Both the position numbers and the translations under genes were made by a program. Shown piece after piece: positions 32,725-62,221 of a stretch of 64,000 bases of DNA; positions within the stretch are counted from its first letter, which is position 1; each line of letters starts with the position of its first letter. Origin of the DNA: a virus. Location: the IMG/VR virus record IMGVR_UViG_3300027963_000043, positions 62,001-126,000 of that record; one strand, given 5' to 3'. The notes beneath the pieces are model-generated. The model was not told where the DNA came from. It saw only the letters and a program-made list of their open reading frames with translations, and searched no databases.

Positions 32725-33112
32725 TGGACCCGAGAGGAATTGAACCTCTGTCTTTTAAAAATCTAAATTAAAATACTACAAGTTTAGTTCTTTTTGTTTT
32801 TAGCTCTATATAGATAAAGAACAAACATACTTAGCGATTTTATTTTTAATATTGAATAAAATAAGAATAAAAAAACTTATTATACTCAAACATCTAATTA
32901 CGCAACTATCCAATAGATGTATCATGGTAGTCACGCTGTAGAACTTAGGCTACAGAAGCGGTCATCTCAACTAGAGAAGCTCTTGCAGAGATATGACCTT
33001 TATATTTTGCTGTTTTGGCAGTTAATATAAGTGAAACTTTTTAAGGAGTCCTCGATTCAACCTCCACTTGCATTCTAATTCATTTCTTTAAAATCGAAAC
33101 CAGTACGGGCCC
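32725..33112 (-). ncRNA. ssrA: Transfer-messenger RNA (tmRNA)
   Basis: About 388 nt. The 5' end GGGCCCG pairs with CGGGTCC at the 3' end (seven pairs, one G-U). TACTGGTTTCGATT follows the 5' acceptor strand, the usual tmRNA start, and GAGGTTCAATTCCTC is the T arm. The CCA end is not encoded. The tag frame is open from GCC at 33019 to TAA at 32947-32945: 24 codons starting AKTAKYKG and ending TASVA; a 21-codon tag from GCA is also possible. The TAA lies in the loop of a CTGTAG/CTACAG hairpin, as in known tmRNAs. A GGTCAT/ATGACC helix lies inside the tag region. The RNA would rescue stalled ribosomes and mark the product for proteolysis. Confidence 0.93.
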
Positions 33113-33141: not shown

Positions 33142-33351
33142 TTATAAAGCTTTTAACAGTTTTTGGCAATCTTTTTTATAAACAAAATTAAACTTAATTC
33201 TTGATCCATTTATATCTGAAATTAATTGGGGTATAGCAATACATGGATACTGATCTGGCTTATCATAAATATTCTCATTAGAAATATTATAATACTTTAC
33301 GCATTTACTAGCGTAAACTGACCATCTGGCTTTATTTTTTATAATTTCCAT
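33142..33351 (-). CDS. Hypothetical small protein upstream of tmRNA
   Basis: A 69-residue protein that I do not recognise: lysine- and tyrosine-rich N-terminus (KNKARWSVYASKCVKYYNIS), then YPCIAIPQLISDINGSRIKF and a lysine-rich end. Its promoter (TTGCAC-N17-TATAAT, 8 nt before the ATG) overlaps the promoter of the structured RNA on the other strand. A tmRNA-side GTGTAAG lies just past its stop, so it and the tmRNA may form one leftward unit. Confidence 0.5.
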   Translation of the reverse strand: MEIIKNKARWSVYASKCVKYYNISNENIYDKPDQYPCIAIPQLISDINGSRIKFNFVYKKDCQKLLKAL

Positions 33352-33359
33352 TTCTACTT

Positions 33360-33388
33360 ATTATAAATAAAATTTGACAAAAGTGCAA
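33360..33388 (-). promoter_or_regulatory. Sigma70-like promoter, leftward, overlapping the ncRNA promoter
   Basis: Leftward TTGCAC (33388-33383), 17 bp, TATAAT (33365-33360), 8 nt to the ATG at 33351. It shares 15 bp with the rightward promoter, so RNA polymerase cannot sit on both at once. Confidence 0.65.
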
Positions 33389-33402
33389 ATTTAATATAAT
33401 AT
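33374..33402 (+). promoter_or_regulatory. Consensus sigma70 promoter for the structured RNA
   Basis: TTGACA (33374-33379), 17 bp, TAATAT (33397-33402). The start site would be near 33409. Unlike the other strong promoters here, no start codon follows; about 380 nt without an ORF come next. Confidence 0.75.
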
Positions 33403-33408
33403 AAATTA

Positions 33409-33705
33409 ACATAGTTCCCAATTAGAGCAGTTTGTTGATGTCAAACAATCAACTATCAATCCCTGAGATAGCAATGTCATAAGGGCTGACAACTATTAAA
33501 ACCTTCATTTGTACATAATATGGCTAAAGAAGGAAATGTAGCTATAGGCATCGCAGAATGTAGTGATCGAAGCTACCTCTGATCAATAAGTGCGATGGCC
33601 CTTTTACCGCTGAGATCGCGGTAAAATTTGGAGTCAAAAGAAAAGTTGGATTGATAATACTCAACTTCAGATATATAAAATCTGGAGGTAAAGCCCTTTT
33701 GGATA
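33409..33705 (+). ncRNA. Candidate structured non-coding RNA, family unknown
   Basis: This stretch has no ORF but many nested inverted repeats: a 9-bp hairpin TTTTACCGC/GCGGTAAAA (33602-33610 with 33618-33626, loop TGAGATC), GGCATCGCA with TGCGATGGCC (33547-33555 with 33591-33600), TATGGCTA with TAGCTATA (33519-33526 with 33539-33546), AAGTTG/CAACTT (33643-33648 with 33662-33667), CAGAT/ATCTG (33668-33672 with 33680-33684), GTTGAT/ATCAAC (33434-33439 with 33448-33453), CTATC/GATAG, and a long-range closing helix AAGGGCT/AGCCCTT (33481-33487 with 33692-33698). It has its own promoter, and the next gene has a separate promoter, so it is probably an independent RNA and not a leader. I see no RNase P, 6S, SRP or group I intron core. 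The 3' end is uncertain. Confidence 0.6.
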
Positions 33706-33772
33706 TCAAAGAAAAGTTAAATAATTCAGGAAACTATATTAATATCAAACTTAATTCTTATAGTATTTATTC

Positions 33773-33786
33773 GTGTAATTTATAAT
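33773..33786 (+). promoter_or_regulatory. GTGTAAT element and TATAAT box before the membrane coiled-coil gene
   Basis: GTGTAAT (33773-33779) is followed directly by TATAAT (33781-33786), then 7 nt to the ATG at 33794. No TTGACA-like box is found 16-18 bp upstream of either. Confidence 0.45.
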
Positions 33787-33793
33787 ACATATT

Positions 33794-34756
33794 ATGTTTA
33801 AATATATATTAGGATTATCTGCATTTATTTTAGCTTCGTGTGCTGCATTTTTTTCAATCAAAGGAATAGCTCTTCTTTTTGCGGCTAGCTTTTGGAGCGT
33901 TGGGATAATGGCTGGAAGCTTAGAGATAGCTAAATTAGTAACTGCAAGTTATCTATATAGATGCTGGTATTCAGTTCATGATTTATTGAAGAAATATATG
34001 TTATCTGCAACTATATTGCTTATGTGCATAACAAGTCTTGGTATATTTGGTTTTCTTTCTGATGCTTTTCAGCGTAATTTTTCTCAATACTCTTTAAATT
34101 TAAATAAAATACAAAGTTTAAAATCTCAACAAAATTTCTATATATCTCAAATAGATTTTAATAAAAATAAATTAAAAGATCTTATAGAATTACAAAAAAC
34201 ATATCAAACATCTTTGGATAATGCTGTAAAACAAGATGTTACTACAACTAAAACTACTAGCGGCGGATTTTTTAGTTCAGATAAAACTGAAAAAGTAACA
34301 GATATTAAATTAGTAGAAAGTAAAAATAAAATAGTTGAAGGATCTCAAAGCAATATTAATAATTTATTTTCTCAAATATCAACAGTAACTCTTGATCTTC
34401 AAAATCTAGAAAAACAAAGTTTAGATAATAACCAAGAAATAATGAAGCTTGAAAGCGATAATACCAAAGGTGAAATTGGCACATTTAAATTTGTAGCAGA
34501 TGCATTTGGATTAAAGATAGAAACTGCTGTTAGAATATTTATTATATTAATAGTTATAGTATTTGACCCATTAGCAGTATGTTTGGTTATAGCTTATAAT
34601 TCATTAAATAAACAACAAAATAATCAAGAAATAAAAGAGCAAAAAATAGAAAAAAACTTTCAAAATCCTATAGATAAATTAAATACAATATATAGAAATT
34701 TTAAAAGAGGCACTAAAAAACAACATAACTTAGAGCTAGCAGATCCTAATTTATAG
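33794..34756 (+). CDS. Conserved phage-type membrane protein with coiled coil
   Basis: A 320-residue protein. Three hydrophobic segments lie in the N-terminal 90 residues (about 3-22, 25-45, 68-92), then a long helical, coiled-coil region (about 100-225, many Gln, Asn and Leu), and a fourth membrane segment (about 243-270: IFIILIVIVFDPLAVCLVIA), ending in a basic cytoplasmic tail. The N-terminal pattern (CAAFFSIKGIALLFA, then LEIAKLVTASYLYRC, then ITSLGIFGFLSDAF) is familiar from T4-like marine phages, where the function is not known. The layout would suit an envelope-spanning sensor or inhibitor. It is followed by the Cys-rich paralogues in the same direction. Confidence 0.65.
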   Translation: MFKYILGLSAFILASCAAFFSIKGIALLFAASFWSVGIMAGSLEIAKLVTASYLYRCWYSVHDLLKKYMLSATILLMCITSLGIFGFLSDAFQRNFSQYSLNLNKIQSLKSQQNFYISQIDFNKNKLKDLIELQKTYQTSLDNAVKQDVTTTKTTSGGFFSSDKTEKVTDIKLVESKNKIVEGSQSNINNLFSQISTVTLDLQNLEKQSLDNNQEIMKLESDNTKGEIGTFKFVADAFGLKIETAVRIFIILIVIVFDPLAVCLVIAYNSLNKQQNNQEIKEQKIEKNFQNPIDKLNTIYRNFKRGTKKQHNLELADPNL

Positions 34757-34776: not shown

Positions 34777-36195
34777 ATGAGTAGCTGTCAAGAATGTACT
34801 GCATGTTATGATCCAGGAATAGAAATAGGATGGATAAATTCTAGTGTAGTAGCAGATGGTTTTTATATGGGTTTTGCTGCATATAAAGCAACACCAGAGA
34901 ACGCTAGAAAACGATGGGCAAATTATACTGAAAAAATAATTAGTTCAGCGCAAGGTCAATCGTATTGTTCGAGTACTTCAGAGGATGATGACTGTCCTGC
35001 TGATACCGACCCAACAACGCCAGGTACACTACCACACTATGCAATGATATATTCTTCAAATTCGCAATATCAAGGAAAACTTGAGTCAACAACTTCATTT
35101 TCAGATATTCAAAATTCAGATGGATCAGTATACACAGAAAAAAATTATAAATGGAAAGAAAGTGATTCATATAATGCTCAAAGTTTTCCTGGACCAGGAT
35201 CTTGCGATGGAAATGGTTGTACTGGTCCTTATGGAATAACTCAAATAGGCAATCCAAGTAGTAGTTATAGTAATAGTGGTTCAGTATCTTATAGAGAAGC
35301 ACCACAAAATACAAGTCCATGTAGTAGTTACTGGCCATATGAACAAAAAGGTTTAAATGTTAGCAAAAGTAATACTTCTCAAGAAAATAGTTATCAAGAT
35401 ATTCCAGACGAAGGTAAATATTGCGATGGATATACTACTAGTCAAACCTTAACAGATGAAAAAGCTAGTTTTAGTTCTCCATCAATTTGTAGTGGCCCAA
35501 ACACAAAGATTAACACGGATACAACTGAAAGTAGTGTTACAATTAGTTATAATACTAATACTTCTTCTAAGACACAAAGCTGTAGCGATTCTTATACATG
35601 TAGTGCTTCTATCTCTTATAGTCTTGAAAATCAATATGATGTATATGAAAAATCATTAACTCTTGCAAAAAATGCATCTGACATAAACATGCAATCTGAA
35701 TTAGGTGGACAGCATTTATGTAATGGATATGGTGGACCTAGATATGGTAACGATTGCGATTTTGGTGTTATTGGTAGCGTTCTTACTCATGTAAATTCAT
35801 TATTAACTGATGAAGAAACAGAACATTATAAATATTATGATATTTATGATGGTTGGGTATATCCATGCAGAATACAATATCAGAACAATAAACCTTATGT
35901 TCAAGTCGCTAAAGATGTTTTTGATAGAGTAGAATCATTTGATATTAAACTATATTTTTATGTTCTTTTAACTGATATAAATCCATGTAATGGTGGAGAA
36001 GAGGGTGAGGATTACGTATCAGTTAAAGAAACGACCATTTCATGTAGCAAAGGAAGTGCATGGAAAACAACTGGAGACCATTACTATTTCTTAGGAGAAG
36101 CACTTACAAGTGATGATACAATGCCTTCTGGAGAGACTCATTATAAAGAGACAAATGTTTGTTATGTTGTAGAAACAATGAATTTTAAAGCTTAA
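34777..36195 (+). CDS. Cys-rich tandem paralogue 1, putative virion or host-contact protein
   Basis: A 472-residue protein I do not recognise. The N-terminus MSSCQECTACYDPGIEIG holds a C-x-x-C-x-x-C cluster, followed by FYMGFAAYKATPENARKR. The middle is Ser/Thr/Tyr/Asn-rich, with repeated motifs of short strands and C-x-G turns, as in phage fibre or adhesin proteins. The C-terminal third (from about 290) is better ordered: VYEKSLTLAKNASDINMQSE, a GYGGPRYG turn and VAKDVFDRVESFDIKLYFYV. It is followed 20 nt later by a paralogue sharing most of these blocks. A GTGTAAT element is 7 nt upstream of the ATG. Confidence 0.6.
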   Translation: MSSCQECTACYDPGIEIGWINSSVVADGFYMGFAAYKATPENARKRWANYTEKIISSAQGQSYCSSTSEDDDCPADTDPTTPGTLPHYAMIYSSNSQYQGKLESTTSFSDIQNSDGSVYTEKNYKWKESDSYNAQSFPGPGSCDGNGCTGPYGITQIGNPSSSYSNSGSVSYREAPQNTSPCSSYWPYEQKGLNVSKSNTSQENSYQDIPDEGKYCDGYTTSQTLTDEKASFSSPSICSGPNTKINTDTTESSVTISYNTNTSSKTQSCSDSYTCSASISYSLENQYDVYEKSLTLAKNASDINMQSELGGQHLCNGYGGPRYGNDCDFGVIGSVLTHVNSLLTDEETEHYKYYDIYDGWVYPCRIQYQNNKPYVQVAKDVFDRVESFDIKLYFYVLLTDINPCNGGEEGEDYVSVKETTISCSKGSAWKTTGDHYYFLGEALTSDDTMPSGETHYKETNVCYVVETMNFKA

Positions 36196-36215: not shown

Positions 36216-37676
36216 ATGAGCAGTTGTCAAGAATGTACAGCGTGTTATGATCCAGGAATAGAAATAGGATTTATAAATTCTGATATACTTGCAAATGGTT
36301 TTTATATGGGTTTTGCTGCATATAAATCAACACCAGAAAATGTTAGAAAACGATATACAACTTATAATAGTAAAATACAAAGTGAATCTCAATATCAAGA
36401 AAATAGATCATCTTTTAATGGATGTGGAGGTTGTCCACAAGGAGGAAGAAGACCAATGATAAGTAATGGTAATTCAAATTATAATGCAACTCTTGAAGCA
36501 AAGACCATATATAGTGCCGTACAAGAATCAGATGGAGCAGTATACATAGAAAAGAGTTATTCATGGGAAGAAAATGATCAAAGTCAATCTGGAGGTTTTC
36601 CTGGAGGTGGAAGTTGCGTTGGTAATGATTGTACTGGTCCTTACGCAGTTTCTAGTATTGGTAATCCTAGTAGTAACAGCAGCAATAGTGGATCAATATC
36701 TTATAGAGAAGTACCAAAAACTAGTGGACCATGTCTTGGTTTTTGGGATGTTAATCCGTACAAAAGAGTAGGTGAGAAAGTTAAAAAAAGTAATACTTCT
36801 CAAGAAAATAGTTATCAAGATATTCCAGAAGAAGACAGATACTGCGAACCAGTAAAAACAACTAAAATTTTATCAGATGAATTTGCCAAGTTTAGTTATC
36901 CTGCTGTTTGTAGTGGTCCAAACGTAAAAACATCAACAACAACTGATGAAACTAATGTAACAATTAGTTATAAAGAGAATGCTATTGTTTCAAGAAGTGC
37001 CGCAGCTGGATGCACAGATCGCTATGGCCGCGATATACCAGGTAGTTATACTTCCTCTTTTAATTCATCATATTCATGTAACGCTTCTAATATTTCAAGT
37101 GTTGAAAATGAATATGATGTATATGAAAAATCATTATATTTTGCAACAATTGCGTCTGCTATAAATATGGAATCTGAATTAAAAGGAAAGCCTTTATGCG
37201 GAGGATATGGTGGACCTAGATATGGTGATACGGATTATAACGGTATCATAAGTGGTCCTCTTACACATATAAATTCATTATTAACTGACGAAGAAATGGA
37301 TCATTATAAATATTACGATATTTATGATGGTTGGCAATACCCATACAGAATACAGTATCAAAATAAATACTTTTATATTCAAGTTGCTAAAGATGTTTTT
37401 GATAGAATAGAATCTTTTGTTATAAAAATTTATTTTTATGTTCTTTTAACAAATGGTATAAATCCATGTAATGGCGGAGAAGTAGACGAAGATTACATAT
37501 CAATTAAAGAGACATCAATTTCATGTGATGTATCAAACATATGGAGAACAACCGAAGACCATAACTATTTCTTAGGACAACCACTTACAAGTGATGATGC
37601 AATTCCTACTGGAGACACTCATTATAAAAATACAGATATTTGTTACGTTATAGAAACAATAAATTTTAAAGCTTAA
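36216..37676 (+). CDS. Cys-rich tandem paralogue 2, putative virion or host-contact protein
   Basis: A 486-residue protein that is a diverged copy of the upstream gene. Blocks shared almost exactly are the N-terminus (MSSCQECTACYDPGIEIG), FYMGFAAYK, SNTSQENSYQDIP near residue 190, YDVYEKSL, the GGYGGPRYG turn, LTDEE...HYKYYDIYDGW and the C-terminal segment with VAKDVFDR. The Ser/Gly/Cys-rich regions between these blocks have diverged most and differ in length, the pattern expected of surface-exposed, receptor- or antibody-like variable segments. Its stop overlaps the stop of the convergent leftward gene within TTAA. Confidence 0.6.
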   Translation: MSSCQECTACYDPGIEIGFINSDILANGFYMGFAAYKSTPENVRKRYTTYNSKIQSESQYQENRSSFNGCGGCPQGGRRPMISNGNSNYNATLEAKTIYSAVQESDGAVYIEKSYSWEENDQSQSGGFPGGGSCVGNDCTGPYAVSSIGNPSSNSSNSGSISYREVPKTSGPCLGFWDVNPYKRVGEKVKKSNTSQENSYQDIPEEDRYCEPVKTTKILSDEFAKFSYPAVCSGPNVKTSTTTDETNVTISYKENAIVSRSAAAGCTDRYGRDIPGSYTSSFNSSYSCNASNISSVENEYDVYEKSLYFATIASAINMESELKGKPLCGGYGGPRYGDTDYNGIISGPLTHINSLLTDEEMDHYKYYDIYDGWQYPYRIQYQNKYFYIQVAKDVFDRIESFVIKIYFYVLLTNGINPCNGGEVDEDYISIKETSISCDVSNIWRTTEDHNYFLGQPLTSDDAIPTGDTHYKNTDICYVIETINFKA

Positions 37677-40266: not shown

Positions 40267-40854
40267 ATGATTGGATTAACTGGAGTAGCTCGATCTGGAA
40301 AAGATACTTTTTATTCTATCTTAAAAAGATATCTAGAAGAAAAGGGAATTAAATCTCAAAGATTAGCTTTTGCTGATGCATTAAAAAATGAACTACATGA
40401 CTTTACTAAAGATAAATTCAAAATAGACTTATTAAATTGCACACCAGAGAACAAAGAAATAGTACGACCACTTATGGTTGCTTATGGTAAATGCAGAAGA
40501 ATTCAAACGGATGGAAAATACTGGACTTCCACAATTCAACCAGAAGTAAATAAATTAATTGCTACTAATATTGTTCCAATCGTAACAGATGTTAGATATA
40601 TAGAATATAAAGATGATGAATATTCTTGGTTGAAATCTCATAATGGTATTTTAATTCATATCTCAAGAAGACTAGATGATGGTTCTTTAATACCTCCAGC
40701 TAATATAGAAGAAAAATCTAACGACAATAAGTTAAAAGCTGTATCTGATGTAACTGTAGTTTGGGAAACTTGTCAAGATGTTAACTTCTTATATGAATTA
40801 ATGCAGAAACAATTAAAAAATGTTTACGAAAAATATTTACAAAATAAAAAATAA
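40267..40854 (+). CDS. Deoxynucleoside monophosphate kinase (T4 gp1-like)
   Basis: A 195-residue P-loop kinase. MIGLTGVARSGKDTFYSIL is the Walker A loop (G-V-A-R-S-G-K-D-T). LAFADALKNELHDF (about residues 35-48) matches the dNMP-binding 'F-A-D-x-L-K' motif of T4-type dNMP kinases, and IVPIVTDVRYIEY (about 98-110) the acidic strand. It phosphorylates several dNMPs to dNDPs, completing dNTP supply with ThyX, dCMP deaminase and NrdAB. Confidence 0.85.
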   Translation: MIGLTGVARSGKDTFYSILKRYLEEKGIKSQRLAFADALKNELHDFTKDKFKIDLLNCTPENKEIVRPLMVAYGKCRRIQTDGKYWTSTIQPEVNKLIATNIVPIVTDVRYIEYKDDEYSWLKSHNGILIHISRRLDDGSLIPPANIEEKSNDNKLKAVSDVTVVWETCQDVNFLYELMQKQLKNVYEKYLQNKK

Positions 40855-40855
40855 T

Positions 40856-41449
40856 ATGAATATAATAACAGACGACATTACTTTGGTAAAGAATATAAAA
40901 GAAAAGAATGATGAAGAAGCATTAAAAGCTTTAATTCAAAAGCATTCGGCTCTTTGCAACTCTTTATATAAAAAATACTCAAACCCCATGATTGCATCTG
41001 GAGTCCATCTTCAAGATGTAATAGATCAAAAAGATTATATAGTATATAAATCAGCAATAACATTTGATGAAAATAAAAAATCTAAATTTTCTACTTGGTT
41101 ATATAACCAAGTAAGATACCAATGCCTTAACTGTATGAATGAAAATAGTCACTACTTAACTCTTGAAACAGATAAATTAAATTATTTGATAGAAAAGAAT
41201 ACTCCAGTTCAAAAAGAATATAAAAATATTAATGAATATATCATGAATATTATTGAATCTTGTTCAGATGAAAGAATACAAAAAATATTTAAAATGCGAT
41301 ATTTGAATGATTCTAATAAAAAAATGTCTTGGAATAAGATAGCTAAAAAATTAAATATAAGTACTCAAACTGCTATTAATATTCATAATAAGGCTATTAA
41401 ATTATTAAAAACTAAAGTCGAGAGTAAAAATTCTTTTGACAAAATATAA
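40856..41449 (+). CDS. RNA polymerase late sigma factor (T4 gp55-like)
   Basis: About 197 residues. A helical N-terminal half with SKFSTWLYNQVRYQCLNCMN (about residues 76-95) reads as sigma region 2 (the F-S-T-W-x-x-x-x-V-R core recognises the -10 element and core polymerase), and a C-terminal helix-turn-helix MSWNKIAKKLNISTQTAINI (about 157-176) reads as region 4. That is the compact layout of phage late sigma factors such as T4 gp55. The natural target would be the GTGTAA(A/T) elements without a -35 box found before virion-type genes. I start at the ATG at 40856, right after the kinase stop; an ATG at 40820 lies inside that gene. Confidence 0.8.
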   Translation: MNIITDDITLVKNIKEKNDEEALKALIQKHSALCNSLYKKYSNPMIASGVHLQDVIDQKDYIVYKSAITFDENKKSKFSTWLYNQVRYQCLNCMNENSHYLTLETDKLNYLIEKNTPVQKEYKNINEYIMNIIESCSDERIQKIFKMRYLNDSNKKMSWNKIAKKLNISTQTAINIHNKAIKLLKTKVESKNSFDKI

Positions 41450-61288: not shown

Positions 61289-62221
61289 ATGACAAAAGAT
61301 AATTTTTCAGAAATTGTTGGACAAGAAAAGACAAAGGGTAAAATTAATTTTCTCCTAGAGGGATTTGAGCAAACAAGAATTATGCCTCATCTTCTTTTCG
61401 TTGCTCCAAGAGGATGCGGTAAAACTCTTATCGCTCAAAAAACAGCTAATCTAATGAATAGACAGAAAACTCTGATTGTTAATTGTTCTACGATCAAGAA
61501 TGTTAAGAGTTTCTTTAATCAGATTATGCTTCCTTATGTTGCAGATAAAGATATTACTATTATTTTTGATGAAGCTAGTGAATTACCAAGAGATGTTACG
61601 ATGGCACTTCTTACTATTTTAAATCCTAATTCCACTAATCAGAATGAATTTAGTTTTGAAGATGGAACTTATACCTTTAGATTCAATCAAAATTCTTTTA
61701 TCTTTTGCACAACAGAAGCTCAAAAGATTTTTCACGCACTTCTTGATCGTCTTTATAGAATTGATCTTCAAGATTATTCTTACATTGAATTAGGCAAGAT
61801 TATCTCTGGAAATTTGTCCACTAAAAAGCAAAAGATTAATGATTCAATTATTAGCGAAATAGCTAGTGTTTGCCGTGGTAATGCTCGACAAGCTCAATCT
61901 ATGGCAAATCAAATCTCATCTTATTTGGCTAGTAAAAAATCCAATGAATTGACTAAAGAAGGCTGGGAAGAAATTAAAAGCAAACTATCCATTTATCCTC
62001 TTGGCCTTTCAGAAATTGAACTTAATGTAATTAAAATTCTCAAAGAACACGGAGAAGTCAGACTAACTAACCTTTCAGCTAAAACTAATCTTACCAGAGA
62101 TATGTTGCAGAAAAATGTTGAAATATATCTTGTTCGTAATAGTTTAATTGAAATTCGTCCAACTGGTAGAGCATTAACTAAAAAAGGTAGCGATTATCAT
62201 ACAGAACATTTATCTAAATGA
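61289..62221 (+). CDS. RuvB-like AAA+ ATPase
   Basis: About 310 residues. FSEIVGQEKTKGKINFLLEG at the start, Walker A LFVAPRGCGKTLIAQKTANL (about 37-56), Walker B ITIIFDEASELP (about 90-101), a sensor-1-like FIFCTTEAQKIFHALLDRLY and an R-finger region, then a C-terminal winged-helix (EVRLTNLSAKTNLTRDMLQK), the layout of RuvB, the Holliday junction branch-migration motor. Clamp-loader ATPases are the alternative, but the winged-helix end and short length favour RuvB. Start at 61289 is fixed by the leaderless promoter. Confidence 0.8.
   Translation: MTKDNFSEIVGQEKTKGKINFLLEGFEQTRIMPHLLFVAPRGCGKTLIAQKTANLMNRQKTLIVNCSTIKNVKSFFNQIMLPYVADKDITIIFDEASELPRDVTMALLTILNPNSTNQNEFSFEDGTYTFRFNQNSFIFCTTEAQKIFHALLDRLYRIDLQDYSYIELGKIISGNLSTKKQKINDSIISEIASVCRGNARQAQSMANQISSYLASKKSNELTKEGWEEIKSKLSIYPLGLSEIELNVIKILKEHGEVRLTNLSAKTNLTRDMLQKNVEIYLVRNSLIEIRPTGRALTKKGSDYHTEHLSK

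Follow-up and report, generated by a model that had tools for sequence, protein, structure and literature searches.

The question raised by this locus is what an uncultured phage encodes in a stretch free of open reading frames beside its tmRNA gene. The window analyzed comprises 64,000 nucleotides (positions 62,001 to 126,000 of IMG/VR record IMGVR_UViG_3300027963_000043). An earlier note, made from the letters alone, had proposed a new structured RNA at 33374-33705 within a gap of 430 bp. The gap was real, although it measured 442 bp between the flanking open reading frames (33352-33793), and the RNA proper was found to occupy 33409-33717 on the forward strand, ~309 nt. The structured-RNA reading was supported, and the refutation tests that were run did not refute it. 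With a probability of roughly 0.85, the comparisons described below point to an independent phage gene whose product is a structured noncoding RNA of ~310 nt that acts in trans, the founding member of a family outside Rfam.

Relatives were gathered with exact DNA patterns taken from conserved stretches and with nhmmer. At an E value of <1e-10, 72 loci were obtained, which after merging of overlapping loci corresponded to 62 distinct IMG/VR records, the window's included. These yielded 47 distinct full-length sequences, with identities down to ~67%, in three groups: A (n = 33, including the window), B (n = 5), and C (n = 9). Members of groups B and C were first detected with the group A profile, at E values of ~1e-20 to 1e-31. 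Within group A, identity to the window copy was 89 to 97% for the RNA, ~81 to 95% for the tmRNA, and ~80 to 92% for a 69-residue reading frame located between them. Outside these records, blastn against GenBank phages gave only chance matches for group A at E ≤ 10 and none for groups B and C at E ≤ 0.1, and a two-motif pattern with a gap, intended for deeper homologues, returned no new members. An exact 19-mer scan of 84,980 species gave no credible match; the single match, in Aquiflexum, was judged to be due to chance (family profile E = 0.48 over 21 positions). The neighboring and replication proteins of the phage likewise had only distant cultured relatives. Five contigs (L069, L172, L173, L174, and L193) were observed to stop within the RNA, as would be expected if assembly had broken in sequence common to co-occurring strains.

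The conserved unit was 307 to 319 nt long in all 47 full-length sequences, with sharp edges at ACAUAG on the 5′ side and AAAGAAAAGUU on the 3′ side. The promoter TTGACA-N17-TAATAT recognized in the earlier note was present and ended 6 nt upstream of the RNA in the window. Its spacer was exactly 17 nt in all 54 copies with enough upstream sequence, and since TTGACA and a -10 box preceded the conserved ACAUAG by 6 to 10 nt in 54/54 readable copies, transcription very likely begins where conservation does. No terminator-like site was found 3′ of the RNA in the window, the only sequence searched for one, and the 3′ end was therefore placed by conservation. Covariance model R1 detected a single copy in the window and likewise a single copy across its source record; seven other records that gave a full-length match also had just one.

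Many other TTGACA-N16-18-TAnnnT boxes in the window were seen to hug start codons, with the ATG ~4 to 10 nt after the -10 box (e.g., 49506+, 51370+, 54413+, 57435+, 10625-, and 7514-); judged by this spacing, mRNAs from such boxes would be leaderless or nearly so. A weak match to sigma-70 region 4 was also noted at 40820-41449 (E = 1.8e-4, below the Pfam cutoff), and a sigma-like factor may thus be among the phage's own products.

Folding energy alone was mildly unusual (z of about -2.1, with 2 to 3 of 100 shuffles equally good) and thus unimpressive, and the case for a fold therefore rests on comparison. The sequences were aligned with MAFFT from sequence only, group A separately and then all 47, with helix P0 and pseudoknot PK3 added in the test of all 47; the structure scored was drawn with these same sequences in view. 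In group A, 99.5% of pair cells were standard and 14 pairs had changed on both sides, a result equaled by 0/500 shuffles. Across all 47 sequences, 93.4% of 3,557 pair cells were standard, against at most 49% when partner strands were slid, and both-side changes were found in 43 pairs (349 cells), again matched by none of 500 shuffles. A tree-aware null was written for this analysis, in which the substitutions on a FastTree tree were redistributed among columns. It gave four significant pairs in each alignment (P3b, P4, and P8 in group A; P3b, P4, P7, and P8 in all 47) and none outside the structure. RNAalifold, run with no structure supplied, recovered P0, PK1, P6, P7, and P10. Homologues with compensatory changes in the helices listed by the earlier note were thus obtained from 61 other phage records.

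A single fold was common to groups A, B, and C, consisting of P0, P1, P2, P3, P4, P6, P7, P8, and P10 with three pseudoknot contacts (Table 1), and groups B and C built this plan helix by helix with their own sequences. P0 was paired in 47/47 sequences, with both-side changes in three of its four pairs (A, GUUC/GAGC; B, GCUU/AAGC; C, GCCU/AGGC). P1 was changed to AUUGAU/AUCAAU in L030 and had separate versions in B and in C. P3 displayed the compensatory changes AUAG/CUAU to AUGG/CCAU and UGUC/GACA to CGUC/GACG, and the closing pair of P4 occurred as C-G, U-A, or A-U and was significant under the tree-aware null, with four compensatory pairs within B and four within C. The helix GGCATCGCA/TGCGATGGCC with one bulged G, described previously from the window, was recovered as P6 (97.6% paired; CAUCGCA/UGCGAUG, UAUGGCA/UGCCAUA, and UACAGCA/UGCUGUA). 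P7 was paired in 98.9% of cells, with one significant pair, and occurred as GAUC/GAUC, GGUC/GACC, AGGUA/UACCU, and AGAGG/CCUCU. The 9-bp hairpin of the earlier note (33602-33610 with 33618-33626) was also found, 8 bp of it being kept family-wide as P8. This helix was 96.3% paired, with both-side changes in 7/8 pairs, two significant pairs in group A, and almost wholly different sequence in B and C. P10 was 96.2% paired in group A, and an equivalent hairpin was present in B and C, where the cross-group alignment was poor.

The inverted repeats that had been described as nested were present as helices, but not all were nested, because three contacts cross. In particular, the AAGGGCT/AGCCCTT pairing exists but does not close the molecule; it forms PK1, a pseudoknot between the hairpin loop of P3 and a 3′ strand. 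PK1 was paired in 99.4% of cells, with both-side changes in 4/7 pairs across the groups (A, AAGGGCU/AGCCCUU; L115, GAAGGCU/AGCCUUC; L113, UAGGCU/AGCCUA; C, GAAGACU/AGUCUUC). PK2 was 97.4% paired (GUAGC/GCUAC, GUAGG/CCUAC, and GUGGC/GCCAC). PK3, which has just 4 bp and is the weakest pseudoknot, was 98.9% paired (A, CCAA/UUGG; B, CCUA/UAGG; C, UCUA/UGGG). In group A, P2 had 9 bp, all paired in every sequence, with two double changes, and in B and C different helices of 13 to 14 bp stood in the same place. P2 and the pseudoknots varied mainly between groups rather than within them; the covariation of P2, PK1, PK2, and PK3 came mainly from a few deep branches, and none of these elements reached significance by itself under the tree-aware null.

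Table 1. Positions in the window of the RNA gene, the elements of its fold, and the adjacent genes
Feature	Position	Strand	Description
Phage tmRNA	32725..33112	-	ARAGORN and RF00023 (111.8 bits); tag AKTAKYKGHISARASLVEMTASVA
69-aa ORF between tmRNA and RNA	33142..33351	-	No family match; dispensable neighbor
Promoter of the RNA	33374..33402	+	Sigma-70 type, TTGACA-N17-TAATAT; read directly and in homologues
Structured noncoding RNA	33409..33717	+	Conserved block of ~309 nt; ends taken from sharp conservation edges
Hairpin P0	33414..33430	+	33414-33417 with 33425-33428, GUUC/GAGC; found by RNAalifold
PK3, 5′ strand	33418..33421	+	P0 loop CCAA with UUGG, 33701-33704 region; alignment A2 columns 10-13/315-318
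Hairpin P1	33434..33453	+	33434-33439 with 33448-33453, GUUGAU/AUCAAC
P2, 5′ strand	33454..33462	+	Partner 33648-33656
Hairpin P3	33468..33496	+	P3a 33468-33471/33493-33496; P3b 33475-33478/33488-33491; loop holds PK1 strand
PK1, 5′ strand	33481..33487	+	AAGGGCU, pairs with AGCCCUU 33692-33698
Hairpin P4	33502..33533	+	33502-33506 with 33529-33533
PK2, 5′ strand	33538..33542	+	GUAGC, pairs with GCUAC 33572-33576 in P7 loop
Stem P6	33547..33600	+	33547-33555 with 33591-33600, one bulged G
Hairpin P7	33565..33584	+	33565-33568 with 33581-33584; holds PK2
Hairpin P8	33603..33625	+	33603-33610 with 33618-33625
Twin unpaired motif, copy 1	33630..33646	+	GGAGUYAAAAGAAAAGU, near-invariant in all 47
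P2, 3′ strand	33648..33656	+	Partner 33454-33462
Hairpin P10	33665..33687	+	33665-33672 with 33680-33687
PK1, 3′ strand	33692..33698	+	AGCCCUU, pairs with 33481-33487
Twin unpaired motif, copy 2	33701..33717	+	GGAUAUYAAAGAAAAGU, conserved 3′ edge; invariant except Y in all 47
320-aa protein gene, outside RNA unit	33794..34756	+	RNA adjoins other genes elsewhere; TATAAT just before ATG

The RNA was then compared with known families. In agreement with the expectation of the earlier note, no Rfam family matched it: with Rfam 15, the window copy and two divergent homologues (L169 and L115) gave no match above chance even at E ≤ 10, and in a cmscan of the window at gathering thresholds the RNA was unmatched, only the neighbor at 32725-33112 being scored, as tmRNA. 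The best subthreshold candidate, Termite-leu RNA (RF01730; 33637-33715), reached 16.6 bits and E = 1.1 against a gathering score of 51 and was attributed to chance, as was CRISPR-DR57 in L169 (E = 0.97, under the gathering score). The absence of an RNase P, SRP, 6S RNA, or group I intron core, remarked on earlier from inspection, held for all three representatives at E ≤ 10; these resemble the new RNA in length and in being standalone or compact structured RNAs, and group I introns differ further in that no interrupted gene is present at the new RNA. The tmRNA (RF00023), an adjacent gene in the same genomes, is similar in size and has several pseudoknots, but the new RNA is without a tRNA-like acceptor, CCA end, or tag reading frame. 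The pairing changed on both sides, the promoter of its own, and the several genomic contexts together mark a new RNA family, and by these comparisons it is a new RNA class not in Rfam. The looser notion of a large structured phage RNA of unknown function is not new.

That notion is exemplified by GOLLD and ROOL, which phages carry close to tRNA islands and which assemble into protein-free homo-oligomers (PMC12286853). Like the new RNA, GOLLD is a large structured phage or prophage RNA with pseudoknots whose function is not known, and it lies near tRNA genes; ROOL is phage-borne, has multiple pseudoknots, and is without a known protein partner. The analogy drawn in the earlier note holds in concept only: neither Rfam model matched, and ROOL (659 nt in the solved example) and GOLLD (>800 nt) are each more than twice as long as the new RNA (PMC12286853). 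A unit of 307 to 319 nt in 47 sequences also falls short of the ~800 nt or more, with a conserved 3′ domain, that defines GOLLD, and the neighbor is a tmRNA rather than a tRNA array. An RNA-only homo-oligomer of this kind, in which kissing loops would hold a self-assembled particle together for use late in infection, would suit a phage-borne, pseudoknotted, promoter-driven RNA close to another RNA gene, and the kissing contacts found may form either within a molecule or between molecules. It is nevertheless considered unlikely, given the length and given that all three pseudoknots can be closed within one molecule. Palindromes in the P4 loop, a candidate dimer site, were no commoner than in shuffled loops, although this says little about a nanocage such as that of GOLLD.

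Similarly improbable is a decoy or inhibitor RNA directed at host defense or host RNA polymerase, in the manner of 6S RNA or of RNA anti-defense. The host-type promoter is compatible with early transcription, and the fold is kept while some helices change sequence fast, but no 6S RNA or CRISPR-repeat match rose above chance. More doubtful still is a ribozyme or self-processing RNA with reaction sites at or beside the twin AAAGAAAAGU motifs. The compact pseudoknotted fold with invariant unpaired stretches would fit, as would the lack of an obvious terminator, by which the 3′ end may arise by processing; against this, no Rfam ribozyme was matched at E ≤ 10, and no conserved flanking sequence of the kind needed as a substrate was present.

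The 320-residue protein gene downstream is co-directional in the window and begins 76 nt past the RNA, an arrangement that would be expected of a cis-regulatory leader such as a riboswitch or attenuator. In most group A and C loci, by contrast, the following gene runs on the other strand, with its end ~10 to 35 nt from the RNA. The gene that follows varies from contig to contig and in most cases converges on the RNA 3′ end, with no constant co-directional gene; the RNA is therefore not a leader, in line with the earlier note's view that it is not simply one. The note's observation that the downstream gene has a start-proximal promoter was borne out by the -10-like TATAAT just before the ATG. 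The gene also occurs without the RNA upstream: a search with the protein returned 21 loci, and apart from a locus nearly identical to the window region, eight of these contained the RNA, at 90 to 94% identity over the matched stretch and in differing positions relative to the gene. A leader function is thus very improbable. A protein-coding, degenerate, or antisense gene has a negligible probability: an antisense reading frame of 55 residues is open in many group A sequences, but 1- to 2-nt indels shift it within A, it is absent from B and C, no frame is open across all groups, and because frames break while pairing is kept, with substitutions that preserve pairing and not reading frames, the RNA is not a degenerate gene. 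A short tag-like sense reading frame from the ATG near 33521 was also discarded, since it meets an early in-frame stop (ATG GCT AAA TAA) in L020.

The 320-residue protein itself had no Pfam or PHROG match; remote homologues are encoded by jumbo phages, a Microcystis phage, and Pelagibacter phage Mosig. The last also carries a tmRNA, and model R1 detected no copy of the RNA in it. Farther downstream, 34777-36195 and 36216-37676 encode tandem paralogous proteins beginning MSSCQECTACYDPGIEIG, the first with no Pfam or PHROG match; both genes are preceded by AGTGTAA and then TTTCTTATG.

The identity of the other neighbor as a tmRNA, noted earlier, was confirmed by ARAGORN and RF00023. A tmRNA was also present in 31/32 RNA-bearing records examined. 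In group A and C loci that include it, the two genes are mostly head to head, ~100 to 900 nt apart and usually ~300; in L020, L037, and L210 the gap is just 109 to 122 nt, and the intervening 69-residue reading frame was unmatched in these three and in L045. The link is not obligatory, because in group B the tmRNA lies ~7 to 16 kb from the RNA, in differing orientations, and in L006 and L174 the distance is 2 to 4 kb. Group B contigs (L115, L197, L080, and L113) have kept an A-like tmRNA (~90% identity to that of the window in L115 and L197) but have a divergent RNA (~67% in L115) several kilobases away, which suggests that the RNA has been exchanged or relocated as a unit. Complementarity between the RNA loops and the tmRNA was no better than in shuffles, and a literature search for phage tmRNA with a companion structured RNA returned nothing relevant. 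The tag peptides of these tmRNAs are unusual, being AKTAKYKGHISARASLVEMTASVA in the window and AKxAKLKGSFSLRVSHxKxxLIAA in group C.

For the preferred reading, a self-standing trans-acting RNA, the comparisons across records demonstrate a separate unit with its promoter, its structure, and its frequent pairing with tmRNA. From these we infer a stable molecule that works in trans and whose twin motif is bound by a partner. Host-type RNA polymerase would start the transcript at or near A33409. Hairpins P0 and P1 would form, followed by the long-range stem P2 around P3, P4, P6-P7, and P8 and then by hairpin P10. Three crossing locks would be added, joining the P3 loop to the 3′ strand (PK1), an upstream strand to the P7 loop (PK2), and the P0 loop to the 3′ end (PK3), and these contacts, PK1 and PK3 especially, would draw the 5′ and 3′ ends together. 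The near-invariant A-rich single strand present in two copies (..AAAGAAAAGU) would likely provide protein-binding or tertiary docking sites. As to function, our best guess, a tentative one, is a trans-acting structural RNA or ribonucleoprotein of a tmRNA-linked module. A partnership of the RNA with the phage tmRNA, serving translation or the metabolism of RNA during infection, is likewise conjecture, held no more firmly. Somewhat less probable is a phage RNA machine of a new class, either an RNA catalyst or a particle that self-assembles or acts on ribosomes, which would be unlike any family in Rfam, form a module with tmRNA, and be placed elsewhere in group B.

GOLLD and ROOL are large phage RNAs whose function is not known and which proved surprising once their structures were solved. 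The RNA described here is a separate, smaller class, and its fixed promoter, covariation-backed fold, and three pseudoknots make it practical for SHAPE, cryo-electron microscopy, and genetics, while the alignment of 47 sequences and the covariance model allow others to seek it in cultured systems. The frequent head-to-head pairing with tmRNA is a tangible lead and could help to explain the presence of tmRNA in phages.
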